From Desulfuromonadales bacterium (GTDB taxonomy: Bacteria; Desulfobacterota; Desulfuromonadia; Desulfuromonadales; BM103), in the NCBI GenBank assembly GCA_030145205.1, contig JAQYVZ010000002.1:124001-188000 (forward strand): a stretch of DNA of 64,000 nt, written 5' to 3'. How positions within the stretch are numbered: the first letter of the stretch is position 1; the number at the start of each line of letters is the position of its first letter. Below are positions 4,878-18,697 of this stretch, piece after piece. The notes below the pieces were generated by a model. The model was not told where the DNA came from, did not search any database, and saw only the letters and a list, made by a program, of their open reading frames with translations. The position numbers and the translations under genes were made by a program.

Positions 4878-5667
4878 ATGTCACCTCACTTTGATCGCCC
4901 TGCAATGCAAGCAGATGGCCGATCAACATCGAAAGATAATAAACGTCCATGCCAAACAAGGTCGGAAAACGACTCTTTGCCAAGCCTGCCAGCCATCTGT
5001 AGCGTCGGCCCATAAGGAGCAACCGCTGGACACGCCCTTTAGCCTCGGCAACCTGATCGTAGGCCTCGAGAAGGCCGCGATAATCTACGATTAATCGCTT
5101 TGACCTCGACAAAGAAATTAAAAAAACAAGAATATCCCTGAACTGCATCTCTTCGCAATATTTTTTCGGGATAATCTCTTCGAAGTCAAACAAGCAAATC
5201 TGGCCATCTTTGACTGCAAAGTTACGTATTTGTGCACCACCATGTGCGTGGCCACTGTTATGCAGTTCAGCCAGGTGGCGTATTGCTTGCTGTAAGTAAT
5301 CGTTCGCCAGATCAGGGTTACGTTTCGCAAATCCTTTCAGAGTCATGCCACAATCTGACATGATGAAATAGTCGTCATTGAAAAATAGAACCTTGGGGAC
5401 GTTCAGACCAAGGTCAGCAAGCTTGATAAGCTTTTTTGGCTCATACGCTGATGATTTTCGCACATTGGTCGTTGGAGCCAGTATCTTCAAGCGAAGTATT
5501 TTTAACAAAAACCGCTGGACAAGCCGCATCAGCTTCCTGCGCACCAATCGATCGCTGACTCGGCGTTTCAGAAAATAAACTTCACCATCACAGCTCAAGC
5601 GGGTCACTTTATCAGGAAACTGAGCGCCGACATCCGACAGGTTGAAATACTTCTCGATCTCAGTCAT
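4870..5667 (-). CDS. LPS-core kinase-like protein with Gly in place of the catalytic Asp
   Basis: The ATG at 5667 (MTEIEKYFNLSD) is preferred over a longer reading that would run far into kdkA; it still overlaps the kdkA stop by 8 bases. The 265-residue product has the small-kinase layout of the Kdo/WaaP group: YFLKRR (Lys region, near 33), FIMSDCG hinge (near 101), an HxD-like loop reading HGGAQIRN (142-149) and FDFEE (160-164) as the metal-binding Asp. The loop has Gly where the catalytic Asp normally sits. Some members of this superfamily may naturally carry this form, so activity is uncertain. Placement between kdkA and gmhA supports a role in inner-core modification. Confidence 0.8.
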   Translation of the reverse strand: MTEIEKYFNLSDVGAQFPDKVTRLSCDGEVYFLKRRVSDRLVRRKLMRLVQRFLLKILRLKILAPTTNVRKSSAYEPKKLIKLADLGLNVPKVLFFNDDYFIMSDCGMTLKGFAKRNPDLANDYLQQAIRHLAELHNSGHAHGGAQIRNFAVKDGQICLFDFEEIIPKKYCEEMQFRDILVFLISLSRSKRLIVDYRGLLEAYDQVAEAKGRVQRLLLMGRRYRWLAGLAKSRFPTLFGMDVYYLSMLIGHLLALQGDQSEVTYD

Positions 5668-6406
5668 TCCGTGTCCGTACCCCAGCATAACCAACCAACA
5701 ACAGCTTCCATTCATCCATCGAAAAAGCAAATTCAGTGACCTGGCTGTCAATCTTCCGCAACGAGCGCAACAAGCGGTTCAGGGTCATCTCCTGCCAATT
5801 GCCCGGCGAACGCAATGCGCCACGATCAAAATCGATCAAAAAGACCGAATTGTCCGAATCAATTAAAATATTGCGGGCATTCATGTCGGCGTGATACACA
5901 CCATGTAAATGAAAGGATTTGAGGGTGGTGCCAATCCGGCTCCAGGCTTCACTTTCCAAAGAGCCGTGCTGCAATCGATCTGCAAGAGTCATGCAGTCAG
6001 GGAGTCGTTCAGTAATCAAATCACCACGATAGAAAAGACCACTGGGCCTGTAAACTGCGGCAACCGGTCGGGGCACAGGTAATCCACAGGAAAAGAGTTC
6101 GGCAAGCAAACGCCATTCCCGGAACATCCGGCTATTTTCTGGATTGGCACCAAAATAGAGGTCATCGGCCAACCGGCTGATCCAACCGCCTCTGCGAAAA
6201 TGACGTAGCACCCAGTCCCGGCCTTGGTCTTGAAAAAACCAAGCCGTGCCGCGGCCGACAGCATCACCAACCAGCCGGGACTCATTGGCCAACCATTCCG
6301 GGTCAAACAGGTCGAGGCACGGTTTAGCGATCAGTCGCGGATCGAAGAGGATTATCGCAGAACCTTCTTTGACGACTTCGGATTTATTACCAAATGACAA
6401 AGCCAC
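5660..6406 (-). CDS. kdkA: 3-deoxy-D-manno-octulosonic acid (Kdo) kinase
   Basis: A 248-residue KdkA-type kinase that phosphorylates Kdo of the inner core at the cytoplasmic face. Visible: VLRHFRRGG (Lys region, near 66), GDLITERLPDC, the catalytic loop HADMNARN (172-179) and FLIDFDRG (189-196). Both catalytic Asp residues are intact. The GTG start at 6406 follows GGAG with 6-base spacing. The first 13 bases overlap the divergent waaC start, so its promoter must lie within waaC or beyond. It heads the minus-strand heptose operon. Confidence 0.92.
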   Translation of the reverse strand: MALSFGNKSEVVKEGSAIILFDPRLIAKPCLDLFDPEWLANESRLVGDAVGRGTAWFFQDQGRDWVLRHFRRGGWISRLADDLYFGANPENSRMFREWRLLAELFSCGLPVPRPVAAVYRPSGLFYRGDLITERLPDCMTLADRLQHGSLESEAWSRIGTTLKSFHLHGVYHADMNARNILIDSDNSVFLIDFDRGALRSPGNWQEMTLNRLLRSLRKIDSQVTEFAFSMDEWKLLLVGYAGVRTRND

Positions 6407-7467
6407 TTAATACTCCGCCTCAAACTCTCTGCATTCTCAGGCTTTCTGCCATCGGGGACGTCAGTCACGTTTTGCCGACACTGCGCGTCCTGCAGCGCAA
6501 CTGGCCCGAGACTGAAATCACCTGGATTATAGGCAAAACCGAATTGGCCCTCGTGAAGGACATCCCCGGCATCGAGTTTATCGTTTATGACAAATCCTGT
6601 GGATGGAAAGCACTGCTTGACCTGAAGAAGGCCCTCAGGGGCAGGCAATTTGAACTTCTGCTGAACCTCCAAGCCTCACTACGCGCCAGTTTGGCCAGCC
6701 TGACAATAAAGTCACCTTATAAACTCGGCTTTGATCGCCAACGCGCCCGTGGATTACAGTGGCTTTTCACCAACAACCAGATCGCAACCGTCCCGCACCA
6801 GCACGTTCTGGACAGCTTTCTCGAATTCCCCAAAGCCCTCGGACTGGCCACCTCGGAGATCGCCTGGAATCTTCCGATACCCGATTCGGCACGGGTCAAA
6901 GCAAAAGAGCTGCTTACATGCAAGCAGCCTTTCATGGCGATCAACCCCTGTTCCAGTGTCCGAGCCCATAACTTCCGCAATTGGGACGTCACATCATACG
7001 CTAAAATCATCGATTTTGCTTCAGAAAAATACGGATTAAACACGGTCCTGACTGGCGGGCCATCCGCCATGGAACGGGACTATGCCGAGCAGATCGTAGC
7101 GGCGTCCACACATAAGCCATGCAACCTGGTCGGCCGGACCAACCTCAAAGAGCTCTTGGCGGTCCTGGATGAAGCCGTTGTTGCAATCGCCCCGGATACC
7201 GGCCCAGCCCACCTGGCCAACGCGGTCGGGACACCGGTGATCGGTCTATATGCCAGCTCCAACCCGAACCGGACAGGCCCTTACCTGAACCGGGAGTTGA
7301 CGGTCAACTGCTATCCGCAGGCAGTCTATGAAGAGCTCGGGAAAGGCGTGGCAGAAGTCCGATGGGGACAGCGGGTCAGGAACCCGGCAGTTATGGAAAT
7401 AATCCAACCTGAGGACGTTCAAAAGAAGCTAACCGTCGCTCTTGAACGACAAGCACCTGACGCCTAA
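6394..7467 (+). CDS. waaC: LPS heptosyltransferase I (GT9 family)
   Basis: A 357-residue GT9 glycosyltransferase that adds the first heptose to Kdo. Visible: LRLSAIGDVSHVLPTL at the N-terminus, WIIGKTE, NPCSSVRAHNFRNW, LTGGPSAMERDYAEQI and the C-terminal APDTGPAHLANAVGTPVIGLYA. The opening motif SAIGD and the charge pattern suit WaaC better than WaaF, and a separate WaaF-like gene is present at 19972-21042. The ATG at 6394 lacks a convincing Shine-Dalgarno. Its leader must lie inside kdkA, which runs the opposite way. Confidence 0.9.
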   Translation: MTKPLNTPPQTLCILRLSAIGDVSHVLPTLRVLQRNWPETEITWIIGKTELALVKDIPGIEFIVYDKSCGWKALLDLKKALRGRQFELLLNLQASLRASLASLTIKSPYKLGFDRQRARGLQWLFTNNQIATVPHQHVLDSFLEFPKALGLATSEIAWNLPIPDSARVKAKELLTCKQPFMAINPCSSVRAHNFRNWDVTSYAKIIDFASEKYGLNTVLTGGPSAMERDYAEQIVAASTHKPCNLVGRTNLKELLAVLDEAVVAIAPDTGPAHLANAVGTPVIGLYASSNPNRTGPYLNRELTVNCYPQAVYEELGKGVAEVRWGQRVRNPAVMEIIQPEDVQKKLTVALERQAPDA

Positions 7468-7550
7468 AAAACGGGGCGAGCAAGGTCTGTCCGGCCTTGC
7501 AAAGCCAAGTGTTAGATGATAGCAGAATGATCCGGATGTAACACGCAAAA

Positions 7551-7565
7551 AGGAGAATAGAAATC
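7551..7565 (+). promoter_or_regulatory. AGGAG ribosome site with 7-base spacing to an ATC codon
   Basis: AGGAG at 7551-7555 is followed after 7 bases by ATC (7563-7565), in frame with the downstream kinase. The preceding in-frame stop is TAA at 7539. There is no ATG, GTG or TTG in this frame until 7671, although the intervening 36 codons read like protein. The same AGGAG-N7-ATC layout occurs before the kinase at 15719-16420. Confidence 0.5.
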
Positions 7566-8393
7566 TTTACCAATCATTGGGGCATCATCGATAACAATTA
7601 CACCCGTTACAGCCTTCGCGGGTTTAAACTCATCGTATGGAAAGACCTGCCCAAAAATGAGTTTATTGAATTGTGCTGTCATCTTTCGGAAGGGAAAGAC
7701 GTCCCCTGCACAGCAAGGGTTAAGAGTTCCAAGCTCGCACGAGTGCATCGCCTTGAATTCAACCATAAAGTTTATTTCCACAAGGACTTTCTACCACGCA
7801 ACTTCTGGGAACCCATAAAGGACGTTTTCAAAGGAACGCGGGCAGAAAGAACATTCAGGGGGCACCGTTTACTCGAAGAAAACGGATTTGGAACCCCGCG
7901 AGTGGTCGTCGCCGGGAAAAAGGGATCGGCCAACTTCATCGTCACAGAATCCATGATAGCCCAACAGGGCGGCCGCGATTACTGGCTGGCATCCTTTCCG
8001 GGGCCCAACGCCTCAGGGGCAGTTCTTAAAACCAAAAGAAGCCTGCTTCAAGATTTGGGACAGACCGTTGGTCAACTGCATGCGGCAGGCATCTTCCATG
8101 GGGACCTGCGCCTGAACAACATGGGGATCGATAGCAAAACACCCGGAGAATGGCATTTCGAATTTATTGACAATGAGCGAACACGGCAATTCAGGCAACT
8201 CCCAGACGCAAGAAGACTAAAAAACCTGGCCCAGCTCTGCCTTTCAATGACCCACCTGACCACCCGAACGGATCGTCTCAGGTGTTTCAATGCTTACCTT
8301 ATGGAAAACCCTGAGATGAAGGACCAAAAGGCGCTGTGGATCCAGCGCATTTCAAACCTCCTCTCCAGGCGCTCTGAGAAAAAAAAATCTTAA
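7563..8393 (+). CDS. LPS core kinase (WaaP/InaA type) with probable ATC start
   Basis: A 276-residue kinase if begun at the ATC at 7563, or 240 residues from a TTG at 7671 that has no Shine-Dalgarno. The extra N-terminal segment (WGIIDNNYTRYSLRGF, WKDLPKNEF) is protein-like and leads into TARVKSSKLARVHRLEF and VYFHKDFL (Lys region), as expected for this fold. The catalytic loop FHGDLRLNN (near 178-186) and FIDNERT (near 205) are intact. It probably phosphorylates a core sugar; the substrate is unknown. It follows waaC after about 95 bases and precedes a phosphatase-like gene. Confidence 0.82.
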   Translation: MFTNHWGIIDNNYTRYSLRGFKLIVWKDLPKNEFIELCCHLSEGKDVPCTARVKSSKLARVHRLEFNHKVYFHKDFLPRNFWEPIKDVFKGTRAERTFRGHRLLEENGFGTPRVVVAGKKGSANFIVTESMIAQQGGRDYWLASFPGPNASGAVLKTKRSLLQDLGQTVGQLHAAGIFHGDLRLNNMGIDSKTPGEWHFEFIDNERTRQFRQLPDARRLKNLAQLCLSMTHLTTRTDRLRCFNAYLMENPEMKDQKALWIQRISNLLSRRSEKKKS

Positions 8394-8501
8394 CTTGCAT
8401 ATAAAACGAAAAAAAGCTATACGCCACAATCACATGATTAGGCAGCAATGAAAACCAATTGCGCATTGGCTGGATAATTTCAAACTAAAAGAGATAAAAA
8501 A

Positions 8502-9059
8502 ATGTCTGGACTGATTTTTGGGCTATCACTGACTTTAGCTTTTGTAACCGTAGGTCTTCTTTTGTATGGCCGGCACAAAGTATACTATCACTTCAAGGTG
8601 GTGGTCCCGGGGGAAATTTATCGTAGCGGCACGCTGGGAAGCGTCGGGTTGTTTCTGGTCAGACACAAATACAAGATTAAAACCATCATCAACTTGAGAA
8701 CAGAAAAGGAAGCAAAACTGGGTGACTGGTACGAAAAAGAAACCCTTTTTTGCAAACAAAACAATGTGAGCCTGGTCAACATCCCCATGGAGTTTGACAC
8801 CCCCCCTGATGCGGAGCAGATCCAGGCATTCCTGGATATCGTCATGGAGCCTGCCTGTTATCCCGTATTGGTCCACTGTGAAGCCGGTGTTATCCGCACC
8901 GGCATGATGGTCGCAGTCTTCCTCAAGCAACGGTTTGGGACCTCCAACGAGGAGATCATCAAAGAACTGCCACTATTCGGTCACCATTGGGACACCAAAA
9001 GACGTAAAGCACGAGGAGTAGAGGACTTCCTGCTCAACTACGGACGCGACGACGCATGA
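8502..9059 (+). CDS. Membrane-anchored dual-specificity/tyrosine phosphatase-like protein
   Basis: A 185-residue protein. Residues 3-22 form one hydrophobic segment, so it is likely a membrane-anchored enzyme. The soluble part has IYRSGTL, TIINLRTEKE and the signature HCEAGVIRTG (125-134), which is the HCX5R(T/S)G phosphate-binding loop of cysteine phosphatases (Cys126, Arg132). Family members of this type act on phosphotyrosine, phosphoinositides or polyphosphorylated sugars. Its setting among LPS kinases suggests a glycolipid phosphate or a phosphoprotein regulating the pathway; this is inference. Confidence 0.85.
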   Translation: MSGLIFGLSLTLAFVTVGLLLYGRHKVYYHFKVVVPGEIYRSGTLGSVGLFLVRHKYKIKTIINLRTEKEAKLGDWYEKETLFCKQNNVSLVNIPMEFDTPPDAEQIQAFLDIVMEPACYPVLVHCEAGVIRTGMMVAVFLKQRFGTSNEEIIKELPLFGHHWDTKRRKARGVEDFLLNYGRDDA

Positions 9060-9450
9060 TTTGTAAAGACATGGGAGACTGTTTCTTTAACATCTTTATC
9101 CTATGCTCCAATTCTGACTTTTTGTATTACTGCAAGAACAAGCCACTCACTGAGAGAATTCCCACACCGTTGTATTTCTACCATCCGACTTAGGATCATC
9201 AAGAGGATTCAACTTTCAAGCAGGCATGCATGTCTGTGAATGACCTGCTCTCTTGAAAGCGTAAATCTGGTCTCTTGCCCTTGGGCAGGTTGCGGATAGT
9301 CTCTCATTTGGGCTATCCTGACCGAGAAGTCCAAGTGGCACAAATGCTATCGCATCTTGTCCGCTAAACAATCCGTGTAAAGCTGCACTTACGAGTTGAA
9401 TTCAGGTCGGAATAAAAGGATATTCTGCCAGCATTTATTCAGGTGATGTT
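9060..9450. other. Non-coding stretch with an imperfect hairpin
   Basis: About 390 bases with no convincing gene. It contains CTTTCAAG (9213-9220) facing CTTGAAAG (9252-9259), with an inner CAGG/CCTG pair (9221-9224, 9244-9247), followed by a smaller TGCCC/GGGCA hairpin. No T-tract follows, so it is not a clear terminator. A short open frame reading TEKSKWHKCYRIL and ending near 9379 could be a decayed gene end; I do not recognise it. The leader of the next gene probably starts here. Confidence 0.5.
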
Positions 9451-11400
9451 TTGAACAAATTTATCAAAGGTAGTCTGTACAAACAGACGATCGTGATATA
9501 CGTTCTCAGTCTGATTATTTTCAGCTTCATTCGATTGTTTCTATTCTTTAAATATCCGAATAGTTTTTCTGAACTGTCAACTTTCGAAATTCTTTCATCC
9601 TTACTCATGGGGATGCGGATCGATATTATTACGCTGAATACATACGCAGGTATAATCATCTTTGCATTGATCATCCCTTTTTCATTTATTAACAGATTTA
9701 AGAAAGTTCTTTTTTACCTATGGTTCCTAATTTTGCTACCAATACTGTATATCAGTCTTGGCGATGTCATTTACTTTGAGCATGTTGGACGCCATGTTTC
9801 CAATGAGCTGCTATCCGCTACAGGCACAGATCTGAACTTTATTCTGGATATGGCTTTTGGTTCCTATCTTATTGAGAACATTGCAGCATTTATTGTCTTT
9901 ATAGTGTTTTTCATGGTGTGGAAAAAAATTGTCAATATCCCCACCAGCGAAAATAAATTCTCACTGAAACTTTTTGGTTTCTCATTTTTGATCCTCATTG
10001 TTTTGGTCCTTGGCGTCCGCGGTAAAATCGTCGACAAACCCTTCGGCATTGCCGATGCGTTTACAACAGATAAACTGGCCAGCGGGAACCTAGCAATTAA
10101 TGGATTTTACTCTCTTTACAGGTCTGCCAATGGATCAAAGAATATAAAGCGTCGATTTCTTCCTAAAAATGAGGCCACGACTCGTGTAAAGCAATTATTG
10201 TCAAGTGAGGCGAGTCGTTTTATCTCTGATGATTATCCGCTTCTAAGAGAATATATCCCTGAAGGTGAAGAGAAAAACCATAATATTGTCATCATTCTGT
10301 TAGAAAGCTGGAGCTCAAGATATATTGATTCGTTCAATGGGAATATCGGCCTCGGTGCAACACCCAACTTCGATAAGCTGGCCAGTCAAGGCCTGAAATT
10401 CACAAAGTGCTATGCAAACGGGCAACGCAGCATAGAAGGCATAACCTCATTAATGACCGGGCACACAATACCTATCGGGGTGAATTCTTTGGGTAGCGGA
10501 CTTGAGTTATCCAACTTAACTTATCTGGGAAAGATCGCCAAAAATCATCAGTATCGTACGATCTCTATGCAGAGTTCAAAAAGGTCGTCTTATCGGGTTG
10601 GATCCATATCGACTCTGGCGGGCTTTGACGAGTATTACGGGGCAGAAGATTTTCCGACAAACCAGGAAGAGCAGACACATACTCCTCCGTCATTCGGCAC
10701 ATGGGATGGGAATATGTTTCGATTTTTGCATCAGAAACTCAACCAGACCCAAGAACCATTTATGACGTTTTCTTTTACCGCTTCGACCCATATCCAATAT
10801 GTGAGTCCTGGGGAAAAATGGGAAAAATTTCAACCGCATCATGAAATGACATTCAATGGATTCTTAAACACCCTTTACTACTCGGATGATATGCTGGGCG
10901 AGTTTATGGCCGAGGCTGAAAAGGAGAGCTGGTTTGACAACACCATTTTCATTTTAACCGCAGACCATGCAGAAATATTTAAAACCGGAACTGAAATCAA
11001 TATGAAGAATATTGATTTGCCTCAAAAGGGGAAACTGGTTCGGTTTGAAATACCACTGGTCATTTACGCGCCTAAACTCCTGAAGCCGGCGGTCATTGAT
11101 GAAGTCGTGTCTCAAGCCGACATCCTGCCGTCCATCATCGATTTCAACAACTGGCGCGACAGTTTCAGTACGATTTCCCACTCTGTTTTCGACACGAGTG
11201 TTTCAAACCGGTTTGCCTTTTTAAAAAGAGGCAATATCGAGTATCTGGTAACCCGGGACGGGTATCTCTCTCATTCACTCAAAAAGAAAACTGAAGGCGA
11301 TGACCCCGTTCTGGAAAAAGATCTTTTGTCCATCGATCAAACGTTCTTCAATCTTATCAGCAGCAATAAAGTCGCACCCGGGGCCGGACAGGTCCATTAA
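9451..11400 (+). CDS. LTA-synthase-type sulfatase-fold membrane transferase
   Basis: A 649-residue protein with about five N-terminal hydrophobic segments (within residues 12-190) and a C-terminal alkaline-phosphatase-fold domain. Visible: IILLESWSSRYID (metal-binding start, near 280), NGQRSIEGITSLM (probable nucleophile Ser region), STHIQY and LTADHAE (metal-binding Asp/His). This is the layout of LtaS/OpgB/EptA enzymes, which move phosphoglycerol or phosphoethanolamine from phospholipids in the periplasm. Placement among LPS kinases favours phosphoethanolamine or phosphoglycerol addition to core or lipid A. Start is TTG at 9451 behind an AGGTGA box. The gene is visibly more AT-rich than the lipid A genes. 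Confidence 0.85.
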   Translation: MNKFIKGSLYKQTIVIYVLSLIIFSFIRLFLFFKYPNSFSELSTFEILSSLLMGMRIDIITLNTYAGIIIFALIIPFSFINRFKKVLFYLWFLILLPILYISLGDVIYFEHVGRHVSNELLSATGTDLNFILDMAFGSYLIENIAAFIVFIVFFMVWKKIVNIPTSENKFSLKLFGFSFLILIVLVLGVRGKIVDKPFGIADAFTTDKLASGNLAINGFYSLYRSANGSKNIKRRFLPKNEATTRVKQLLSSEASRFISDDYPLLREYIPEGEEKNHNIVIILLESWSSRYIDSFNGNIGLGATPNFDKLASQGLKFTKCYANGQRSIEGITSLMTGHTIPIGVNSLGSGLELSNLTYLGKIAKNHQYRTISMQSSKRSSYRVGSISTLAGFDEYYGAEDFPTNQEEQTHTPPSFGTWDGNMFRFLHQKLNQTQEPFMTFSFTASTHIQYVSPGEKWEKFQPHHEMTFNGFLNTLYYSDDMLGEFMAEAEKESWFDNTIFILTADHAEIFKTGTEINMKNIDLPQKGKLVRFEIPLVIYAPKLLKPAVIDEVVSQADILPSIIDFNNWRDSFSTISHSVFDTSVSNRFAFLKRGNIEYLVTRDGYLSHSLKKKTEGDDPVLEKDLLSIDQTFFNLISSNKVAPGAGQVH

Positions 11401-11518
11401 GACAATCGTCTGGACCAGCGACCTTTACGAAAAAATACGATCAGCCCTCAAAAGAGCTTTTTCCCAAAGTTCCGGCAAGAAACCCGATGTCGGCCGCCCT
11501 TTCTTTCCTTTGACAAAA

Positions 11519-12382
11519 ATGCCCCCCTCATCTATAACCGCACTCATGATGGAATCGACACTCAACGCCAATTACACCCTCCAGAGAAAAGGAGGAGTGC
11601 GCCTCTGGAGTGACACCATCAGACTCGACGAAAGACTGACAAGAATCATCCGTTCGCTCGACAATCCCTGCGGCGATGACCTCCAGATTCTCAAGCAGGG
11701 GCTAAGACGGTGTGTGCTCCGCATCACCCGCAATCATGTCACGCCCCCCGGCCTGATCGTCAAAGCGTTTCCTCTGCAGAAAATCGAATCGCGTCTCAAA
11801 TACAAGCGATACGGCCTGTCTGAAGCACTGAATTATATCCATGCGGCACAGCTGAACCTGCCGACCCCAGAGTTTCATGGCTATTTTCAATACCACTCCC
11901 TGGGCACCGTCAAAGCGAATGGCGTGCTTATCCAGGACATGAAGGACTACCAGACCCTTCATGACCTGGCCCAGCAAAGCCCCCAGGAAAAACTGCCGAT
12001 TTTAAGCCTGTCAATACCGGTCATTCAGCAACTGTTTCAAGCCGGGGCCAATCATATCGACACCACAGCCCATAATTTGATGATATCTCCATCAAGAGAA
12101 AAAACCGTGGTGATCGATTGGCAGTACTGCTCGTTTCACCAACCTGAACAGGTTGATCAACTCACCCTCCAGGCAGCCCAATTTCTGCGCTATACCGACA
12201 TGACAGAAACCGGCACCCCGGACTGGACGGTATGGCTGAAAGAGCTGTATAACCAATGTCGCCCTGATGTGGACTGGCAGATATTTCGTCAGAACGTCAG
12301 TGGCTTGCAGTCCCGACAGCGGGCAAGCGCAAAAAGCCGACTGAGTCTCAAGGTCTCCATGCCTTGCAACGAAGCACAATAA
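11519..12382 (+). CDS. LPS core kinase-like protein
   Basis: A kinase-fold protein of about 287 residues. The ORF opens earlier, overlapping the preceding gene, but that part looks non-coding; ATGs at 11519, 11546 and 11549 are candidates and none has a good ribosome site. In frame, GGAG at 11607-11610 is followed after 7 bases by an ATC, echoing the two other kinases, but this would remove some protein-like sequence. Visible: LIVKAFPL (Lys region), YGLSEALN, LIQDMKD hinge, catalytic loop NHIDTTAHNLMI and VVIDWQYC. The catalytic residues are present. Likely role: phosphorylation of an LPS core sugar. Confidence 0.78.
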   Translation: MPPSSITALMMESTLNANYTLQRKGGVRLWSDTIRLDERLTRIIRSLDNPCGDDLQILKQGLRRCVLRITRNHVTPPGLIVKAFPLQKIESRLKYKRYGLSEALNYIHAAQLNLPTPEFHGYFQYHSLGTVKANGVLIQDMKDYQTLHDLAQQSPQEKLPILSLSIPVIQQLFQAGANHIDTTAHNLMISPSREKTVVIDWQYCSFHQPEQVDQLTLQAAQFLRYTDMTETGTPDWTVWLKELYNQCRPDVDWQIFRQNVSGLQSRQRASAKSRLSLKVSMPCNEAQ

Positions 12383-12400
12383 GGATGACCCAATACCATC

Positions 12401-13594
12401 ATGTTTAATTTCGGTCAGAAATTCCGTCACTTCAGCCATAAGCAGCGCTGGAGAAAGGCACGCAAACGGGGTAAAACGTTAAGACTCAGGGTAGGAAACC
12501 TTTCAAGTTTCTTTCACAATCTCAACACCCGAGAGATACCGTATACTGTCCTTCGCTGGTTTGATGAAGTTCCGCGCAGCATTGCTCAAGAAGAACAATG
12601 TATCGAAGATATTGATTTCCTGATTGATCATACGAGGCTTGATGAGGTCGTCGAGCTCGCCTCTCAGCATCACGGAAACATTAAATGTGATTTTTACAGT
12701 CCGACCGGCAAACGAGGGACCGGTTTCAAAAAAATGCCCTATTACCCTCCCGTGATGGCCTGGGAGATTTTATCCAATCGTGAAATTTACGACGACAACT
12801 TTTATGTTCCACCCGCTGATTTGCACTTCAAGTCCCTTGCCTATCACCTGACTTACCACAAGGCGACCACTTCCGGCATCCCGTCAGGCACAGACGACTT
12901 CCCTGTCTCTCTGCCTGCCAAGAGACCTTACCAGGAGCTGCTTGAGCGACTCGGCGACAGTCTCCAGATTGAACTCCCAAAACCGTACACCCTGATCGGG
13001 CTCCACCGTTATCTCCAACAGCATGACTGGGGGATGCCGTATGACCTGATGGTTCGCTGGCCCAAAGAAAAAGGATGGATGCGCTATCTGGCAGAACAAG
13101 AGGAAGAGATCTTCCGGCCATACGCCGAAAACGATCCTGACCTGATCGTCTTTATGCTGCGTTCTGATGCGACTGAAAGCAAAGAAATCAGGGAGGCCAC
13201 CATCGCCCTGATTGAAGAACATTTCAGTATTTTAAAAACGGTTCCGCTCGATGAGGCCATGGCTTCTCGAACGTTGCGGTCTACCAGAGGGGGGAACTGG
13301 ATGGAGCATAACGGGACAGAAACCATCCCCCCCACTGTGGTCCTTGTGTGCCGGGACGATACGCCCGAGATCTTTGCGTTGAATGACCCCCGACGCAAAA
13401 AATACCCCCTTATCAGCAACGCCAAGGTGCTTTACAAAAACGATATCCGGGAAACCATCAATCAGAAATTTTCGGGCAACGGCCACAAGAGGGCCGTCCT
13501 CCATGCCAGCGATAATGCCATGGAAGCTCAGCACCACCTTCAGGCAGTGTATGGCGATCAATATCCTGCCATTTGTAACGAATTAAGGTGTTAA
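12401..13594 (+). CDS. Nucleotidyltransferase-like / NDP-kinase-like fusion protein
   Basis: A 397-residue protein that I do not recognise as a whole. Residues about 35-230 resemble a nucleotidyltransferase-like domain: IPYTVLRWFDEVP followed by EDIDFLIDHTRLDE (69-82), with a DxD-type pair. Residues about 248-385 resemble nucleoside-diphosphate kinase: LIVFMLRSDATESKEI for the first strand, PPTVVLVCRDD for the core strand, and RAVLHASDNAMEA (364-376), which parallels the NDPK catalytic NxxHGSDS loop with His368 kept. A strand-for-strand parallel is visible, but overall identity to true NDPKs is low. It probably handles a nucleotide-activated or phosphorylated donor for core decoration. Confidence 0.6.
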   Translation: MFNFGQKFRHFSHKQRWRKARKRGKTLRLRVGNLSSFFHNLNTREIPYTVLRWFDEVPRSIAQEEQCIEDIDFLIDHTRLDEVVELASQHHGNIKCDFYSPTGKRGTGFKKMPYYPPVMAWEILSNREIYDDNFYVPPADLHFKSLAYHLTYHKATTSGIPSGTDDFPVSLPAKRPYQELLERLGDSLQIELPKPYTLIGLHRYLQQHDWGMPYDLMVRWPKEKGWMRYLAEQEEEIFRPYAENDPDLIVFMLRSDATESKEIREATIALIEEHFSILKTVPLDEAMASRTLRSTRGGNWMEHNGTETIPPTVVLVCRDDTPEIFALNDPRRKKYPLISNAKVLYKNDIRETINQKFSGNGHKRAVLHASDNAMEAQHHLQAVYGDQYPAICNELRC

Positions 13595-13595
13595 T

Positions 13596-14627
13596 ATGCC
13601 GGTCGACATTCAAAAAACATGTCTTGAAGCTCCTCGTTCACTGGAGATGTCAATGGCCCGGGCAATAGCCGCCAACCTTGTGCGATCACTCCCCCCCCGC
13701 TCCAAATTATCCCGCAAATTATTACGAATCATCTACGGGGAAAAATTCAAGCATATGAGCATCGCGGGCGCAGCCTTCAGGCTGCAACCCACCGCCCACC
13801 CCCAGGTCTGGGAGATTTTCTGGAAAGGGGAAAAGCTCGGAGAGACTCATCCTTTCCCGGAAACAGAAACCCTGGTAAAAGACGACATATGGGTTCTTGC
13901 GACAGGGCCATCCGTGAAAGAGCTTGACCTTTCACGGCTCAAGGACAAAAAAGTGATGGGGGTCAACGGTGCAATCGCCATCTGTCAGCAGCACGGCATT
14001 GTCCCCACCTACTATGCCAGCTCAGATCACAACTTCTTTTCTGATCGAATGGACCTGGTCAAGGAAGCCATCGCGTCAGGGGCACATTGCTTTTTTTCAT
14101 TCAACGGCCTTGCCCGAATTTGCGAGAGGGCACCAGAGCTGATCGCCACAGGCAAGATCTCATTCTTTGAGATTGTCAATCGCTACTACGGTATTCCGAG
14201 AATCGATTCAAACGATCTGCTTCGATGTGGCTCAAACGACCCCGACCTCCTTATCAGCGACAACAACCCCAAAGTCGGCTGGAGTCACGACATCAGGAAA
14301 GGGGTCTTTGCGGCAAAGACGATCACCTACAGTGCCTGCCAGATTGCCAACTTCCTACAAGCCAGGAATATATTTATTCTTGGTATGGACCTGGGCAATC
14401 CACAGGGACAACCCATTCGTGCCTACGAATCCGGGCCTCAGGCATGTAATTCCAGCCTGTTTAAAGATTATGAAAAGACCATTTTGCCGTCCTTTCAGTT
14501 TCTGTCACAGCTCAATCTGCCCACCCGCGTCTGGAATCTTTCCTTGAACAGCCGTCTTCCGAACGATGTCATTCCGAAACTGAGCTTTGAAAACGCTCTC
14601 AACCTTCAACTGGCGGATGACAAATGA
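13596..14627 (+). CDS. DUF115/GT42-like Rossmann protein in LPS core cluster
   Basis: A 343-residue protein with IWVLATGPSVKELDLSRLKD near 102-121, VMGVNGAIAI, PTYYASSDHNFF, and later FILGMDLG near 262. The ATGPS...L.LSRL...VNG...SSD...GMDLG pattern is shared by DUF115/MptE-like proteins and GT42-type sialyltransferases, which use CMP-sugars or nucleotides. A transferase acting on a core sugar is plausible; no donor can be named. ATG at 13596 follows AAGGTG, which overlaps the stop of the preceding gene; its own stop overlaps the next start as ATGA. Confidence 0.65.
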   Translation: MPVDIQKTCLEAPRSLEMSMARAIAANLVRSLPPRSKLSRKLLRIIYGEKFKHMSIAGAAFRLQPTAHPQVWEIFWKGEKLGETHPFPETETLVKDDIWVLATGPSVKELDLSRLKDKKVMGVNGAIAICQQHGIVPTYYASSDHNFFSDRMDLVKEAIASGAHCFFSFNGLARICERAPELIATGKISFFEIVNRYYGIPRIDSNDLLRCGSNDPDLLISDNNPKVGWSHDIRKGVFAAKTITYSACQIANFLQARNIFILGMDLGNPQGQPIRAYESGPQACNSSLFKDYEKTILPSFQFLSQLNLPTRVWNLSLNSRLPNDVIPKLSFENALNLQLADDK

Positions 14628-15586
14628 AAGCCATACTTCTCAACGACACCGATGCCGGACGACACATCGGATGCGAGCTTGTTATCAGGAACACACGCGC
14701 GCTGTGCGAGCGTTACAATATTGAGATCATCCATTCGGTCAAAACCAGAGCCGCCATGGAGGCGGAGAACCAGATTGCCCCACTGCTCGACACAGCCGAT
14801 CTGATTTTACTCAATGGAGAAGGAACGCTCCATGATGACAAACCACGCGCCCTGGCCCTGCTCAAAGCGGCCAACATGGGCAAGGCGGCAGGCCTTAAAA
14901 TGGTCCTCTATAATTCGCTCTGGGACAACAACCCGATCGGGCTGCAGCATCTTGCCGATTTTGACCTTGTTTTCTGCCGGGACAGCCACAGCTCAGCTGA
15001 AATCCGCAAGGCTCACCCGACTCTCAAAGTACAAACTGTGGCAGACATGATTTTCGCGACACCAATCTCCCACAGCCAATCATCTCCTGGGCAAGACACC
15101 CCGCTGATATCAGATTCGGTGCGTGCCGGAAAATGCATGGCGCTTGCAAAACTTGCTATTAAAAACCGGCTGCCGTTTGCCCCCATGGGCAGCGGCTTCC
15201 ACGAACGGGTCCGGACCTCCCCTATTCTCAGGTGGAAACTGTCGCGTTTCTGTGATTATCAGTTTAACCACCTAGACACCCCCGACACCTTTGCTGCGAA
15301 GATCCAGGCTTCCTCAGGAATAATTACAGGCAGATTCCACGCGGCATGTTTTGCGCTGCTTTTGGGGACCCCTGTCTGCTGTCTGTCATCCAATACACGT
15401 AAAGTTGAATCGCTTTACGCGGATTTCGGTCTATCCCCGGAGCTTGTCTTGCAAGCCGTTACATCCCTAGACGATGCACGCCCGCAATGGGAAGAGCAAA
15501 CTCGCCTTCGCAGTCATCTCGATCAACATGTTGCAAAAACCCGCGAGCAAATCCACGAGATGTTTGATCAGATTTCCAGGTTATAG
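14624..15586 (+). CDS. Polysaccharide pyruvyl transferase family protein
   Basis: A 320-residue protein of the CsaB/WcaK family (PS_pyruv_trans), which adds ketal-linked pyruvate from phosphoenolpyruvate to sugars. Visible: LNDTDAGRHIGCELVI at the N-terminus, LILLNGEGTLHDD, FDLVFCRDSHSSAEI, and the C-terminal IITGRFHAACFALLLGTPV, a hallmark of this fold. It is coupled to the previous gene by a 4-base overlap and ends the plus-strand half of the island. Pyruvylation would add negative charge to the core or O-chain; the acceptor is unknown. Confidence 0.85.
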   Translation: MKAILLNDTDAGRHIGCELVIRNTRALCERYNIEIIHSVKTRAAMEAENQIAPLLDTADLILLNGEGTLHDDKPRALALLKAANMGKAAGLKMVLYNSLWDNNPIGLQHLADFDLVFCRDSHSSAEIRKAHPTLKVQTVADMIFATPISHSQSSPGQDTPLISDSVRAGKCMALAKLAIKNRLPFAPMGSGFHERVRTSPILRWKLSRFCDYQFNHLDTPDTFAAKIQASSGIITGRFHAACFALLLGTPVCCLSSNTRKVESLYADFGLSPELVLQAVTSLDDARPQWEEQTRLRSHLDQHVAKTREQIHEMFDQISRL

Positions 15587-15718
15587 CCAGAGGTGACTGC
15601 CTATCGACATGCCGGCCAGATGTTAACGGCTCTGCCCCGGGAGGGAATGATGGGACCAGAGGTTCAACTCAGCGAAAAACCCCGCACTGATCGGCAGTAA
15701 GCTTGCTGTCCACGACCT

Positions 15719-16420
15719 TTATTCAGCAAGACCTGCCATTTTTTCGGCACAAAACCGTGAGGCTTTCTCCGTAAAGATGGCCGCTTTTTGTTCCGACTTG
15801 AAAGCGGCGTTTTTTACATATTCGCCCAGAAAAGCATCAACGGTAACCAGAGCGAATGCTTCCCGGTCCTCTTTACAGTGGAGGATGTGGTTAAAATTTC
15901 TAACCCGCTTTGATATGGACAAGGGTGCAGAAGAAAAATGAAGATCTGCGACATCAATGAGCCCGAAACTTCCCTCCCCAGTGACAATCACATTATTAAA
16001 ATGAATGGAGCGAAAATAGATGCCTTGCTCATGCAGCTGGGCGAAAAAACGCGCTAATTCCAACATCAACTTTTTCGTATCGGTCTTCTTCCTGATTAAA
16101 CTCCTGAGAGAAAGCCCCTCGAGAGGCTGGTACACAACGATATCCCGCTTGATCGAGGGTACCCTGAAGGCATCCAGAACCTGAAGCGTGGGAATATTTT
16201 TATTCCTCAAATTGTGCACAGCACTGACAAAGCGCTTGGCGTAGGGCCAAATCAGCGCAGACGACACCATCCTTTTCCGCCGGAACAATTTCACAATACG
16301 GCCATCCTCGAGCCGTATCACTTTGTCGCCAAATCGGTCTTTTGTCAGGATCTGGCCTTGGTCTACCAATTCGTCAAAAGTCGATTTTTCAAGCTTTCGC
16401 CATTTGTTGTGCGGTCTGAT
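15719..16420 (-). CDS. LPS core kinase-like protein with probable ATC start and altered catalytic loop
   Basis: 233 residues if begun at the ATC at 16420-16418; 216 from a TTG at 16369 that lacks a ribosome site. The added residues (RPHNKWRKLEKSTFDEL) read well into LVDQGQILTKDRFGDKV. Visible: DGRIVKLFRRKR (Lys region), VVYQPLEG hinge, and a catalytic loop reading YFRSIHFNNVIV (about 135-146), where Phe and Ser replace the usual His and Asp; GLIDVADL keeps the metal-binding Asp. I recall the FRS-H-xN form in Pseudomonas LPS-linked proteins labelled toluene tolerance. It is last in the waaG operon. Confidence 0.75.
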   Translation of the reverse strand: MRPHNKWRKLEKSTFDELVDQGQILTKDRFGDKVIRLEDGRIVKLFRRKRMVSSALIWPYAKRFVSAVHNLRNKNIPTLQVLDAFRVPSIKRDIVVYQPLEGLSLRSLIRKKTDTKKLMLELARFFAQLHEQGIYFRSIHFNNVIVTGEGSFGLIDVADLHFSSAPLSISKRVRNFNHILHCKEDREAFALVTVDAFLGEYVKNAAFKSEQKAAIFTEKASRFCAEKMAGLAE

Positions 16421-16433
16421 TTTCCGTCTCCTC
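16418..16433 (-). promoter_or_regulatory. GAGGAG ribosome site with 7-base spacing to an ATC codon
   Basis: Reading on the minus strand, GAGGAG (16433-16428) overlaps the TAG stop of the tandem-kinase gene and is followed after 7 bases by ATC (16420-16418), in frame with the kinase. No ATG, GTG or TTG occurs in frame until 16369. The geometry equals that at 7551-7565. Confidence 0.5.
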
Positions 16434-17869
16434 TAGGCCTTCAATCGCTCAAAAAAAGCGAGGATATCGGAACGATGCTGCCAGTTCCTGATAAATCGAT
16501 TGACATCTTTTTCCCGGGCACGGGAAAAGCCTGCTTTTCTTTTGTGCTGTCTCATGCTGTCAAGATCGATCAACCATGGTTCCTTGTTCCGGATAATGAT
16601 ATTGGTGGCCTTCATATCTCCATGGCTGATCATCAAGGATTCAAGCGTTGCAAAAAGACGAATGATCAGTTGGGCCGTCCTTGATTTATCTTCGGTACCG
16701 GCCGTTTGAAAATAATGTAAGGCATCCTCTCCACTCAGATATTCACAGACAAAATACGCTTTATTCCGGAAAGGCCCGAACCGTCGTTCCTTCATCGCAA
16801 TAGGTCGGCAAGTCTTGATCCCGTTTGTCATTAAAAGGTGTGCGTTTCGCCATGACATGTCTGCCCGGGTTTTTTTAAATGCACGTCTCAGGGCATGGCC
16901 CATGTTTTTCATATTGTAGCGCTTCACCACCAGTTCGAGGCCATCAATGGTACAGCGGACAACGGTCGCAGTATTGCCGGCCTTGAGAATTTTGTTGTCG
17001 GAGTCATGAAACACCGCATCCGGGTTCTCCAAAAAAGCGGCCATTGCCGGTGTATAATGACTGCGCTGACACAGCATAAAATCGGAAAACGATTTTCTGC
17101 AGAGAATCTGGGTAGAGTTCCGATAAATTTTTTTCAGATATCTGTTCACCGTACGTTGTCGACTGGTCTCCATTAACGTTTCAAGCTTCGCAGCAATCTC
17201 AGGGGTCTTCCCAAAATCGCGACGACTGTTTCTATAAACATCAACCAGATCGTGATAAAAAGTTTCGTCCGGCATGTTCAGCTTACTCAAAAGAATGGAC
17301 AAATTTTCCAGACTTGTCTCTGCATCCAGAGGCTTGTCACGAACCTTTTTCACGGCCGACCCGTCAATCGCGTAGAGGGTCTCTTCTTTTAATAAAAAAT
17401 TATTGGGGTGCAGGTCAGTATGCATGATACCGTTTTCATGCATCCGACCGACAAACTCGACCAGCGCCCGGAGGGATGCTTGGTACGATACGACCAGCGA
17501 TTCACATTTGAAAATCGTTTCAAGATCAATCGACGACTCAATGTACTCAAAAACCAGGACATGAGCGTTGATATCATGACAGTATTCAGAATGTAAAATC
17601 GATGCCGTTGGCAACCGCAGCTGCCGGAACAGGTCATAGCCGTCAAGCTCCTTTTTGACGTGGACCTGATACCGGAACGGTTTGAAAAAAAACTTTGCCA
17701 CGACCGGTTGGCCATTGCAGGTCCCTGAAAACACCGCGCGCCTGCCAGGAACAAATCGCAGAACTGCGTCGCAGGTCAAACGGACATTGTTTTGGTTCAG
17801 CCGCAGGTCAAAAGGAAGCGACAACTGTTCACGACCGATGACAATGCTTTTCGTCTTTGATGAGTCCAT
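16433..17869 (-). CDS. Tandem double kinase of the LPS core cluster
   Basis: A 478-residue protein with two complete kinase-fold domains. Domain 1: VVAKFFFKPF (Lys, near 59), LVFEYIES hinge, catalytic loop MHTDLHPNN (149-157) and YAIDGSAV (166-173). Domain 2: LVVKRYNMKN (near 316), FVCEYLSGED hinge, SHGDMKATN (415-423) and WLIDLDSM (432-439). Both keep their catalytic residues, so it may phosphorylate two core positions, or one domain may regulate the other. It starts 3 bases after the waaP stop. From memory, Pseudomonas core clusters also have several kinase genes after waaG-waaP, so the layout may be ancestral. Confidence 0.88.
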   Translation of the reverse strand: MDSSKTKSIVIGREQLSLPFDLRLNQNNVRLTCDAVLRFVPGRRAVFSGTCNGQPVVAKFFFKPFRYQVHVKKELDGYDLFRQLRLPTASILHSEYCHDINAHVLVFEYIESSIDLETIFKCESLVVSYQASLRALVEFVGRMHENGIMHTDLHPNNFLLKEETLYAIDGSAVKKVRDKPLDAETSLENLSILLSKLNMPDETFYHDLVDVYRNSRRDFGKTPEIAAKLETLMETSRQRTVNRYLKKIYRNSTQILCRKSFSDFMLCQRSHYTPAMAAFLENPDAVFHDSDNKILKAGNTATVVRCTIDGLELVVKRYNMKNMGHALRRAFKKTRADMSWRNAHLLMTNGIKTCRPIAMKERRFGPFRNKAYFVCEYLSGEDALHYFQTAGTEDKSRTAQLIIRLFATLESLMISHGDMKATNIIIRNKEPWLIDLDSMRQHKRKAGFSRAREKDVNRFIRNWQHRSDILAFFERLKA

Positions 17870-17872
17870 GAC

Positions 17873-18697
17873 CTACCACAGAGCCGGTGGATTTTTGTGA
17901 AATTCTTTTTTATACAGCTGCACAGCGCGCCGTTTAACGATCCACCAGAAAAACCGGTTGTTTGCGATAGACATTTCACCTGAAGTATTGTGGTAGAGAC
18001 CAGCAAAATACAACAGGTCTTCTTTGCTGAGACCGATATCCATACTTGAGAACAACAGCCCCGAAACGTCCTTGACACGCCACCGCCATGGCGCTTTCTT
18101 CCGGATCTGCACACGATGCAGATCAATCAGAAAGAGTCGGATATGATCAGGGTCAATCTGCTCACCACCCTTTGAAATATCGAGCAGAAAGTGACAGATA
18201 TAAAAATCTCTATGGTTCAGGCCATTTTCATGAATGGTCCTGGCAATCTGCGCTACTTTCGTGATGATTGCTTTCTTAACCTCAGGGGGTGGAGATTGAG
18301 TTGCCCAGTCTTTGCATAATGTTTCAAGGCTGACCGTATCTTTAAGTTCATCCGTTATAACAAAGGATTTTATCTGGCCCGGATTCCAGCCTGTTTTTCC
18401 ATATCCCACCAGCGGAGTTGTTTCAATCCCAAGACTGTCCAGCTTTTGAATAGCACGCCATTCGCTCTGGGCACTCAGAACCGGTGGACGGCGGAACTGC
18501 AACAGGTTTTTGATGATTTTTTTCCACCCGACTCCGCTGTGAAATTTCCCGTAGTAATATTTTCCGTCTAACTCGAAACGAAGGGTCCTTCTCCCATCCT
18601 TCTCCCTGTAGACATCGCCGTCAATGGTAAACAGCGTCTCCAGCGCCTCCTCCTCGGTTTGCCAGTATTTCGCCCATTCTTTTGGTAAACAAATCAT
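17873..18697 (-). CDS. waaP: LPS core heptose(I) kinase
   Basis: A 274-residue RfaP/WaaP kinase, which phosphorylates heptose I of the inner core; in Gram-negatives this charge crosslinks LPS through divalent cations. Visible: LRFELDGKYYYGKFHSGVGW, FVITDELKDTVSLE, the RfaP-specific loop NGLNHRDFYICHFLLD (about 157-172) and LFLIDLHRVQ. Length is typical. The ATG overlaps the waaG stop (ATGA), as in other waaG-waaP pairs. Confidence 0.96.
   Translation of the reverse strand: MICLPKEWAKYWQTEEEALETLFTIDGDVYREKDGRRTLRFELDGKYYYGKFHSGVGWKKIIKNLLQFRRPPVLSAQSEWRAIQKLDSLGIETTPLVGYGKTGWNPGQIKSFVITDELKDTVSLETLCKDWATQSPPPEVKKAIITKVAQIARTIHENGLNHRDFYICHFLLDISKGGEQIDPDHIRLFLIDLHRVQIRKKAPWRWRVKDVSGLLFSSMDIGLSKEDLLYFAGLYHNTSGEMSIANNRFFWWIVKRRAVQLYKKEFHKNPPALW

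Follow-up and report, generated by a model that had tools for sequence, protein, structure and literature searches.

The gene at positions 12401 to 13594 of the analysed window (the whole stretch of 64,000 nucleotides of contig JAQYVZ010000002.1, from a Desulfuromonadales bacterium) encodes a protein of a new family, in which a nucleotidyltransferase (NTase)-like domain is joined to a domain of the NDP kinase (NDPK) superfamily, both domain assignments being well supported. As regards the reaction, which we infer from domains and context, we give nearly an even chance to an enzyme with two active sites that decorates the LPS core, or a related envelope glycan, together with the adjacent kinase.

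12401 to 13594, + strand: NTase-like/NDPK-like fusion protein gene (ORF; ATG start; 397 aa)

This gene is the single match in its own genome. Whole-protein scans of Pfam, NCBIfam and PHROG provided no family that would name the protein, the Pfam scan returning one row at E 0.13 that was judged spurious, and the C-terminal part alone gave one PHROG row at E 0.11. Searches of PDB sequences with the query and with A2, A3 and A4 yielded neither an NDPK nor an NTase row, and a full-text literature search of open-licence PMC papers found no description of an NTase-NDPK fusion. The unfamiliarity of the architecture, as stated in a preliminary description of this DNA, therefore holds as far as these family collections and these papers reach. 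That description had also read an NTase-like N-terminus from an EDIDFLID block (containing D70 and D72) and a divergent NDPK-like C-terminus from the motif LHASD (containing H368); both motifs lie in the ORF where it had placed them, and both domains are now backed by models, fold comparison and profiles. It had further suggested that the protein could build or recycle a nucleotide-activated donor, or decorate the core by phosphohistidine chemistry. Residue counts given below refer to 31 full-length homologues with repeats removed: loci L050, L051, L074, L080 and L001-L005 were dropped as repeats of loci in the set, L006, L068, L069, L081 and L082 were dropped as matching in the NTase part only, and the loci with the NDPK-like part first (L063-L067 and L078) were counted apart from the 31.

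13136 to 13591, + strand: NDPK-like domain, residues 246-397 (model, fold comparison, profiles; the relative L076 matches PF00334 above cut-off)

The C-terminal domain was modelled with AlphaFold2 from 13 sequences (pLDDT 90.7, pTM 0.87), and the NDPK fold, for which the preliminary description had proposed a structure comparison, was found in the query model. Named NDP kinases occupied 49 of the best 50 rows of VIA-align, here a re-scoring of Foldseek candidates only, while the 50th was an unnamed axoneme chain; the matches to NDPKs showed Z scores of 8.6-9.5, with 107-123 residues aligned at rmsd 3.0-3.8, and spanned the query from residues 241-247 to residues 385-397. Foldseek itself, run with the whole model against the PDB, gave no row at E ≤ 0.001, the best values being 0.031 for a radial-spoke chain and 0.038 for the best named NDPK. 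When compared by Foldseek with viral models, the whole model gave two partial giant-virus matches (E 2.1e-4 and 5.5e-4), to proteins annotated as glycosyltransferase or uncharacterised.

In hhalign, the C-terminal profile built from 31 rows was aligned with one built from 31 ndk genes and reached a score of 32.4 (P 7.3e-5, probability 62%, 121 columns), to be compared with a maximum of 18.9 for 200 column-shuffled NDPK alignments, 10.0 for the reversed control and 14.1 for the N-terminal half; with 13 homologues the match was weaker (probability 23%, P 0.00089). A chance motif as the source of the NDPK likeness was thus set aside by the shuffled and reversed controls. The Pfam profile check that had likewise been proposed turned out negative for the query, which showed no NDK (PF00334) row at E ≤ 1; such a row was displayed by 4/31 homologues (4/18 in one batch and 0/13 in the other, which includes the query). 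L076 reaches 28.2 bits vs a gathering score of 27, over profile positions 4-132 of 135. With the 31-gene ndk profile, L076 is detected at E 0.00082 and the query at E 0.84; therefore, the query sequence by itself would not reveal its NDPK likeness. Against PDB sequences, a profile of the 18 other homologues produced 13 rows at E ≤ 1, of which 10 were NDPK, all weak (E 0.19-0.95), and L076 alone produced 40 rows, three of them NDPK (best 0.031) and most others protein kinases. Considering the predicted model together with the profile alignments, we take the C-terminal domain to be a remote NDPK homologue, its likeness appearing to be more than chance. That the gene might be an ordinary ndk was also set aside, a separate ordinary ndk being present in the same genome.

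Conserved positions of this domain were then located relative to those of NDPKs, the residue mapping coming from alignments and not from superposed coordinates.

13160 to 13162, + strand: R254, at the NDPK K12 place (31/31; register from profile alignments)
13286 to 13300, + strand: RGGNW motif, residues 296-300, near the NDPK F60 region (R296, G297 and W300 31/31; G298 29/31; N 27/31)
13436 to 13450, + strand: K346-xxx-R350, with R350 at the NDPK R105 place (30/31 each; 6/6 order-swapped relatives)
13502 to 13504, + strand: H368, putative phospho-accepting His (NDPK H118; 31/31; 6/6 order-swapped relatives)

In the predicted structure, H368 belongs to the last strand (E367-369), at the place that the profile alignment assigns to the catalytic His of NDPKs, and S370-D371 align with NDPK S120-D121, D371 being conserved in 31/31. 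The catalytic-His context, reported earlier as retained, reads H368-A-S-D in the query and follows H-[GAST]-[STA]-D in all 31 homologues, with HGSD in 11 of them. K346 stands one turn ahead of R350, and the invariant W300 adjoins the place of the base-stacking F60 of NDPKs. Regarding the NDPK residues to which passages of PMC7461546 attribute substrate binding (N115, R88, T94 and the Kpn loop), N115 is present in 15/31 homologues and absent from the query, equivalents of R88 and T94 are not recognised in a region where the alignment is poor, and the Kpn stretch is diverged, this segment being mostly missing in L011. As judged from the aligned sequences, the phosphoryl-transfer centre is likely kept and substrate binding changed. 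We do not call the query an NDP kinase because it does not reach the cut-off for NDK and because the residues that typically bind substrate in NDPKs are not recognised, even though it may still act like one.

12410 to 12469, + strand: basic helix at the N-terminus, residues 4-23, with possible membrane contact (helix in the model; basic composition)
12479 to 13045, + strand: NTase-like domain, approximately residues 27-215 (model; best VIA-align rows are nucleotidyltransferases)
12608 to 12616, + strand: D70-x-D72, putative metal-binding DxD (30/31 each)
12689 to 12691, + strand: D97, putative third carboxylate (D 28, E 2 and T 1 of 31)

Residues 1-245, modelled alone, reached a pLDDT of 91.7. 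Foldseek comparison of this N-terminal model with the PDB gave no row at E ≤ 0.001, and in VIA-align the first 21 rows are all nucleotidyltransferases by name (Z 4.6-6.9), headed by MenT1 and ANT(2'')-Ia, tied at Z 6.9, with TM1012 at 5.6 and LnuA at 5.3. Since these Z scores are moderate, and values below 8 may reflect a common arrangement according to the guidance of VIA-align itself, the NTase assignment leans also on D70/D72 and D97. The G-[GS] motif that is usual in nucleotidyltransferases ahead of the DxD is absent, its place being taken by L51-R52 (L 29/31, M 2/31; R 31/31), and therefore the domain is described as NTase-like and given no named NTase family. The first 33 aligned residues contain 7-13 K/R and 0-2 D/E in 17/17 homologues examined, and a basic N-terminal helix would fit a possible contact with the membrane.

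The kinase partner, absent from the preliminary description, is the most informative element of the context.

11300 to 12382, + strand: Kdo/APH-type kinase (weak PF06293, NCBIfam Kdo kinase model, HxD..N..ID motif)

The kinase ORF ends 18 nt upstream of 12401. Its PF06293 score of 16.4 bits does not reach the cut-off of 21.3, and its value of 2.7e-7 with the NCBIfam Kdo kinase model is below the cut-off of that model; it keeps the HxD-x4-N + ID catalytic motif in the form HIDTTAHN...VID. The ORF as called overlaps the preceding sulfatase-family ORF, and the true kinase start is probably near 11546, as judged by the homologue L007.

A Kdo/APH-type kinase adjoins the family protein or is fused to it in 21/31 homologues. 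In 17 of the 31 it is the next gene on the same strand, with an ORF spacing of -14 to +18 nt in 17/17, and in four (L013, L060, L072 and L076) a kinase-like part is fused at the C-terminus, as read from weak Pfam APH, ABC1 or Pkinase rows together with the motif, which for L060 was read by eye. Two of these fusions, L013 and L072, are diverged copies from a single Nitratireductor MAG (genome G488). The HxD-x4-[NQ] + ID motif is found in the 16/16 adjacent kinases tested, with one Tyr for His and one Gln for Asn; several of the adjacent kinases are above the PF06293 cut-off (e.g. L010, L011 and L089), and others are nearer to APH or choline kinase or display weak Pfam matches only. The other 10/31 homologues show no visible kinase partner, five having a conserved P-loop-type neighbour instead and five having neither; at L062, L075, L077 and L079 the kinase profile found nothing at E ≤ 1e-3, and L061 lies at a contig end.

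These counts depend on neighbour genes called by a longest-ORF rule, which missed the family gene in L094, L098 and L100, where it was placed otherwise. BLAST linkage grouped the glycosyltransferase-like neighbours of L013, L092 and L093 with kinases, and they were removed on inspection. For L012 and L088 (two), the adjacent genes were unlinked to other kinases by BLAST at 1e-6, and their kinase calls rest on the motif, joined in L012 by weak Pfam rows. As for the P-loop-type neighbours, the Pfam scan covered L017 of the five, and the called copy at L015 is without the P-loop stretch.

Relatives with other architectures were also found. In six of them (L063-L067 and L078) the NDPK-like part comes before the NTase part; it is homologous to that of the query (hhalign probability 97.3%, P 2.7e-11) and shows no significant match to NDPK when aligned alone (probability 3.9%, P 0.011). 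K-xxx-R and the His are conserved in 6/6 of these order-swapped relatives, with Asn (five) or Gly (one) at the Asp371 place, and two of them carry a C-terminal kinase that scores above the Pfam cut-off. In L105 (1348-2850, + strand), an NDPK-like part is joined straight to a protein-kinase-like part, with no NTase seen. Thus, the NDPK-like domain is linked to a kinase both with and without an NTase. In a further branch (L014-L017 and L053) there is an extra N-terminal domain of ~150-180 residues, without any Pfam row in L014 and L017, and a P-loop-type neighbour replaces the kinase.

13596 to 14627, + strand: WaaZ-like/MptE-like protein, cassette partner (PF01973 2.8e-9; TIGR04437 2.2e-23, below cut-off)
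14624 to 15586, + strand: polysaccharide pyruvyl transferase family protein, cassette partner (PF04230 7.9e-15)

In addition to these two partners downstream of the fusion gene, nearby genes encode a family-9 glycosyltransferase, a phosphatase-like protein and a sulfatase-superfamily protein, and window positions 5660-18697 contain six Kdo/WaaP-group kinase-like genes in ~13 kb; four exceed the Pfam cut-off, one of them with two matched stretches, and the other two fall short of it. The gene families point to an LPS-core or related envelope locus. This locus is unusually kinase-rich for an LPS locus. The sulfatase-superfamily protein lies upstream of the module (window 9451-11400), and one is likewise found beside a Planctomycetota homologue (L095 3816-5837); such proteins could be phosphoethanolamine or phosphoglycerol transferases. 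The neighbours of homologues include envelope-glycan genes and transferases, according to a scan of 113 of 179 listed neighbours that left out adjacent kinases, P-loop partners, window genes, long proteins and order-swapped loci, and that under-counts kinases. In a Desulfuromonas MAG, a carbamoyltransferase gene with both Pfam halves (L008 1-1719) lies directly ahead of the homologue; carbamoylation of the core has been described for Pseudomonas. No match was found in plasmids, phages or IMG/VR, the latter scanned only for two short peptide patterns, and phage or plasmid cargo was set aside.

The family is rare and patchy, and occurs in at least four phyla, the genome counts including seed genomes and the phylum names being taken from the named seed. 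Matches are present in 4/98 related genomes, own included, and in 2/395 genomes of the own phylum, namely the own genome and one with the NTase part only. They appear in 20/337 genomes of the phylum of an Akkermansiaceae homologue (13 full length), in 5/294 of that of a Phycisphaerae homologue (4 full length) and in 3/398 of that of the gamma proteobacterium L18, where the full-length form is in the seed genome only. A scan of genome contigs confirmed 12 loci among 58 pattern matches. In the tree of the 31 homologues the phyla are mixed, 10 changes being needed for four groups (minimum possible 3) vs a mean of 12.1 in shuffles, which were as low as 10 in 6/200. The partner of the query in this tree is an Opitutia MAG protein (L007; support 99/93), whose 5.6-kb contig carries kinase, fusion, WaaZ-like and pyruvyl transferase genes in a different order, with identities to the window proteins of 45%, 60%, 59% and 60%, respectively. 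This contig is short and could be misbinned; other Verrucomicrobiota members are independent of it. L017 groups with Desulfuromonadales relatives in the tree, its record being labelled Myxococcota.

In the decoration route that we tentatively prefer, a core sugar or small molecule would receive its first phosphate from the kinase; H368 of the NDPK-like domain would accept a phosphoryl group from an NTP and hand it to a phosphate acceptor, and the NTase-like domain would move a nucleotidyl or phospho group as part of this route. Because R88, T94 and the Kpn loop are not recognised, free NDP may not be what accepts the phosphoryl group. A ping-pong scheme for NDPKs is outlined in passages of PMC11312278. 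As precedents, geranyl and farnesyl pyrophosphates have been reported as NDPK substrates (work cited in PMC7461546), and di- and triphosphates have been observed chemically on the LPS core of Pseudomonas syringae DC3000 (PMC8005017). This explanation is favoured by (i) the NDPK fold, the profile score above all shuffles and L076 above the Pfam NDK cut-off, (ii) the kinase next door or fused in 21/31 homologues, (iii) the invariant His together with R254, K346 and R350, (iv) the conserved DxD, (v) the order-swapped relatives and L105, and (vi) the envelope-glycan genes among the neighbours; against it stand the lack of an NDK match in the query, the weak sequence signal outside L076, the order-swapped relatives not matching NDPK significantly when aligned alone, the unrecognised R88, T94 and Kpn loop, N115 being kept in 15/31, the absence of Foldseek rows at E ≤ 0.001, the 10/31 homologues without a visible kinase, the weak Pfam kinase assignment of several partners and the moderate NTase Z of 6.9. 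The site of action would presumably be the envelope glycan, in a neighbourhood that is phosphate-rich anyway.

A possible alternative, although on the unlikely side, is that the kinase forms an X-phosphate from which the NTase makes a nucleotide-activated X, the NDPK-like domain restoring NTP or driving the reaction, and that this product feeds nearby transferases such as the WaaZ-like protein. A kinase acting with a nucleotidyltransferase is a known logic, as in HldE and LicA/LicC, and the NTase-like domain with its DxD, the same kinase association and the transferases among the neighbours agree with it. On the contrary, an ordinary ndk is already present in the genome, the canonical NDP-binding residues are not recognised, and the coupling of NDPK-like and kinase parts in L105, with no NTase seen, is not predicted by the making of such a donor.

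It is rather unlikely, but conceivable, that the NDPK fold has been recruited with the kinase as a glycan diphosphate synthase, in which the kinase would phosphorylate a core sugar and the phosphohistidine domain would attach a further phosphate, leaving a sugar-linked pyrophosphate on LPS, the NTase using or capping the phosphate.

We regard as doubtful a purely regulatory NDPK-like domain, which would sense nucleotide or phosphate, or act as a scaffold, and so control the NTase or kinase without turning over itself. NDPK-like proteins without NDPK activity do exist, as NME10/RP2 (according to passages of PMC7461546), and the unrecognised R88, T94 and Kpn parts would fit such a role, but it does not account for the conservation of the His in 31/31 homologues and 6/6 order-swapped relatives, of R254 in 31/31 and of K346 and R350 in 30/31.

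Very improbable is a toxin-antitoxin-like NTase/kinase pair residing in LPS loci, of the type of MenT/TglT with a kinase antitoxin. It would match MenT1 among the best N-terminal rows (Z 6.9, tied with ANT(2'')-Ia) and the usually adjacent kinase, but not the sugar-gene neighbours, the four-gene set shared with the WaaZ-like and pyruvyl transferase genes, the NDPK-like domain, the restriction of PADLOC rows to a weak one in 1/13 members (E 0.0039) or the empty plasmid, phage and IMG/VR searches. Convergence, or a ferredoxin-like arrangement of a common kind, as the source of the NDPK likeness would suit the query E of 0.84 with the ndk profile, the lack of any Foldseek row at E ≤ 0.001 and the hhalign probability of 62%, but can hardly be reconciled with the shuffle control, L076 above the Pfam NDK cut-off across the domain, 49/50 structural rows being NDPK, and the K/R12, R105 and H118 places occurring in the same order.

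NDPK is chiefly familiar as an enzyme of nucleotide housekeeping, and here its fold, with a putative phosphorylatable His, would constitute a movable module, which sits in a family that has no name, is spread patchily and is associated with envelope-type kinases. If an acceptor other than an NDP is phosphorylated, phosphohistidine chemistry would have found a new use in the assembly of the cell surface, and the protein would be a candidate enzyme for phosphoanhydride decorations of the LPS core. The family looks rare in the phylum of P. syringae (one full-length protein in 398 genomes, the seed), and so would not be a general answer there.

Among known systems, the uncharacterised nucleotidyltransferases of NTP_transf_5 (PF14907) match weakly 1/13 members (E 0.0093) and the NTase-kinase relative L006 (0.02), but both matches are below the Pfam cut-off or unscored against it, and the window protein shows no match. 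MenT1, ANT(2'')-Ia, TM1012 and LnuA resemble the query over residues ~32-217 (Z 5.3-6.9) and in having a DxD and a further Asp; unlike them, the query has a conserved L-R for G-[GS], and a helical region and the NDPK-like domain then follow. The partner kinases share with Kdo/WaaP kinases (PF06293) the HxD-x4-[NQ] + ID motif in 16/16, whereas the window partner scores 16.4 vs 21.3 bits and others are nearer to APH/choline kinase. With respect to NDK (PF00334; NME/NM23), the query differs in being below the Pfam cut-off, in having Arg at the K12 place, in its unrecognised R88, T94 and Kpn, in N115 being found in 15/31 homologues, and in its fusion to an NTase-like domain; on the contrary, it is alike in its predicted fold over residues 244-397, in the last-strand His within H-x-[ST]-D, in the Arg at the R105 place and in having a basic residue at the K12 place.
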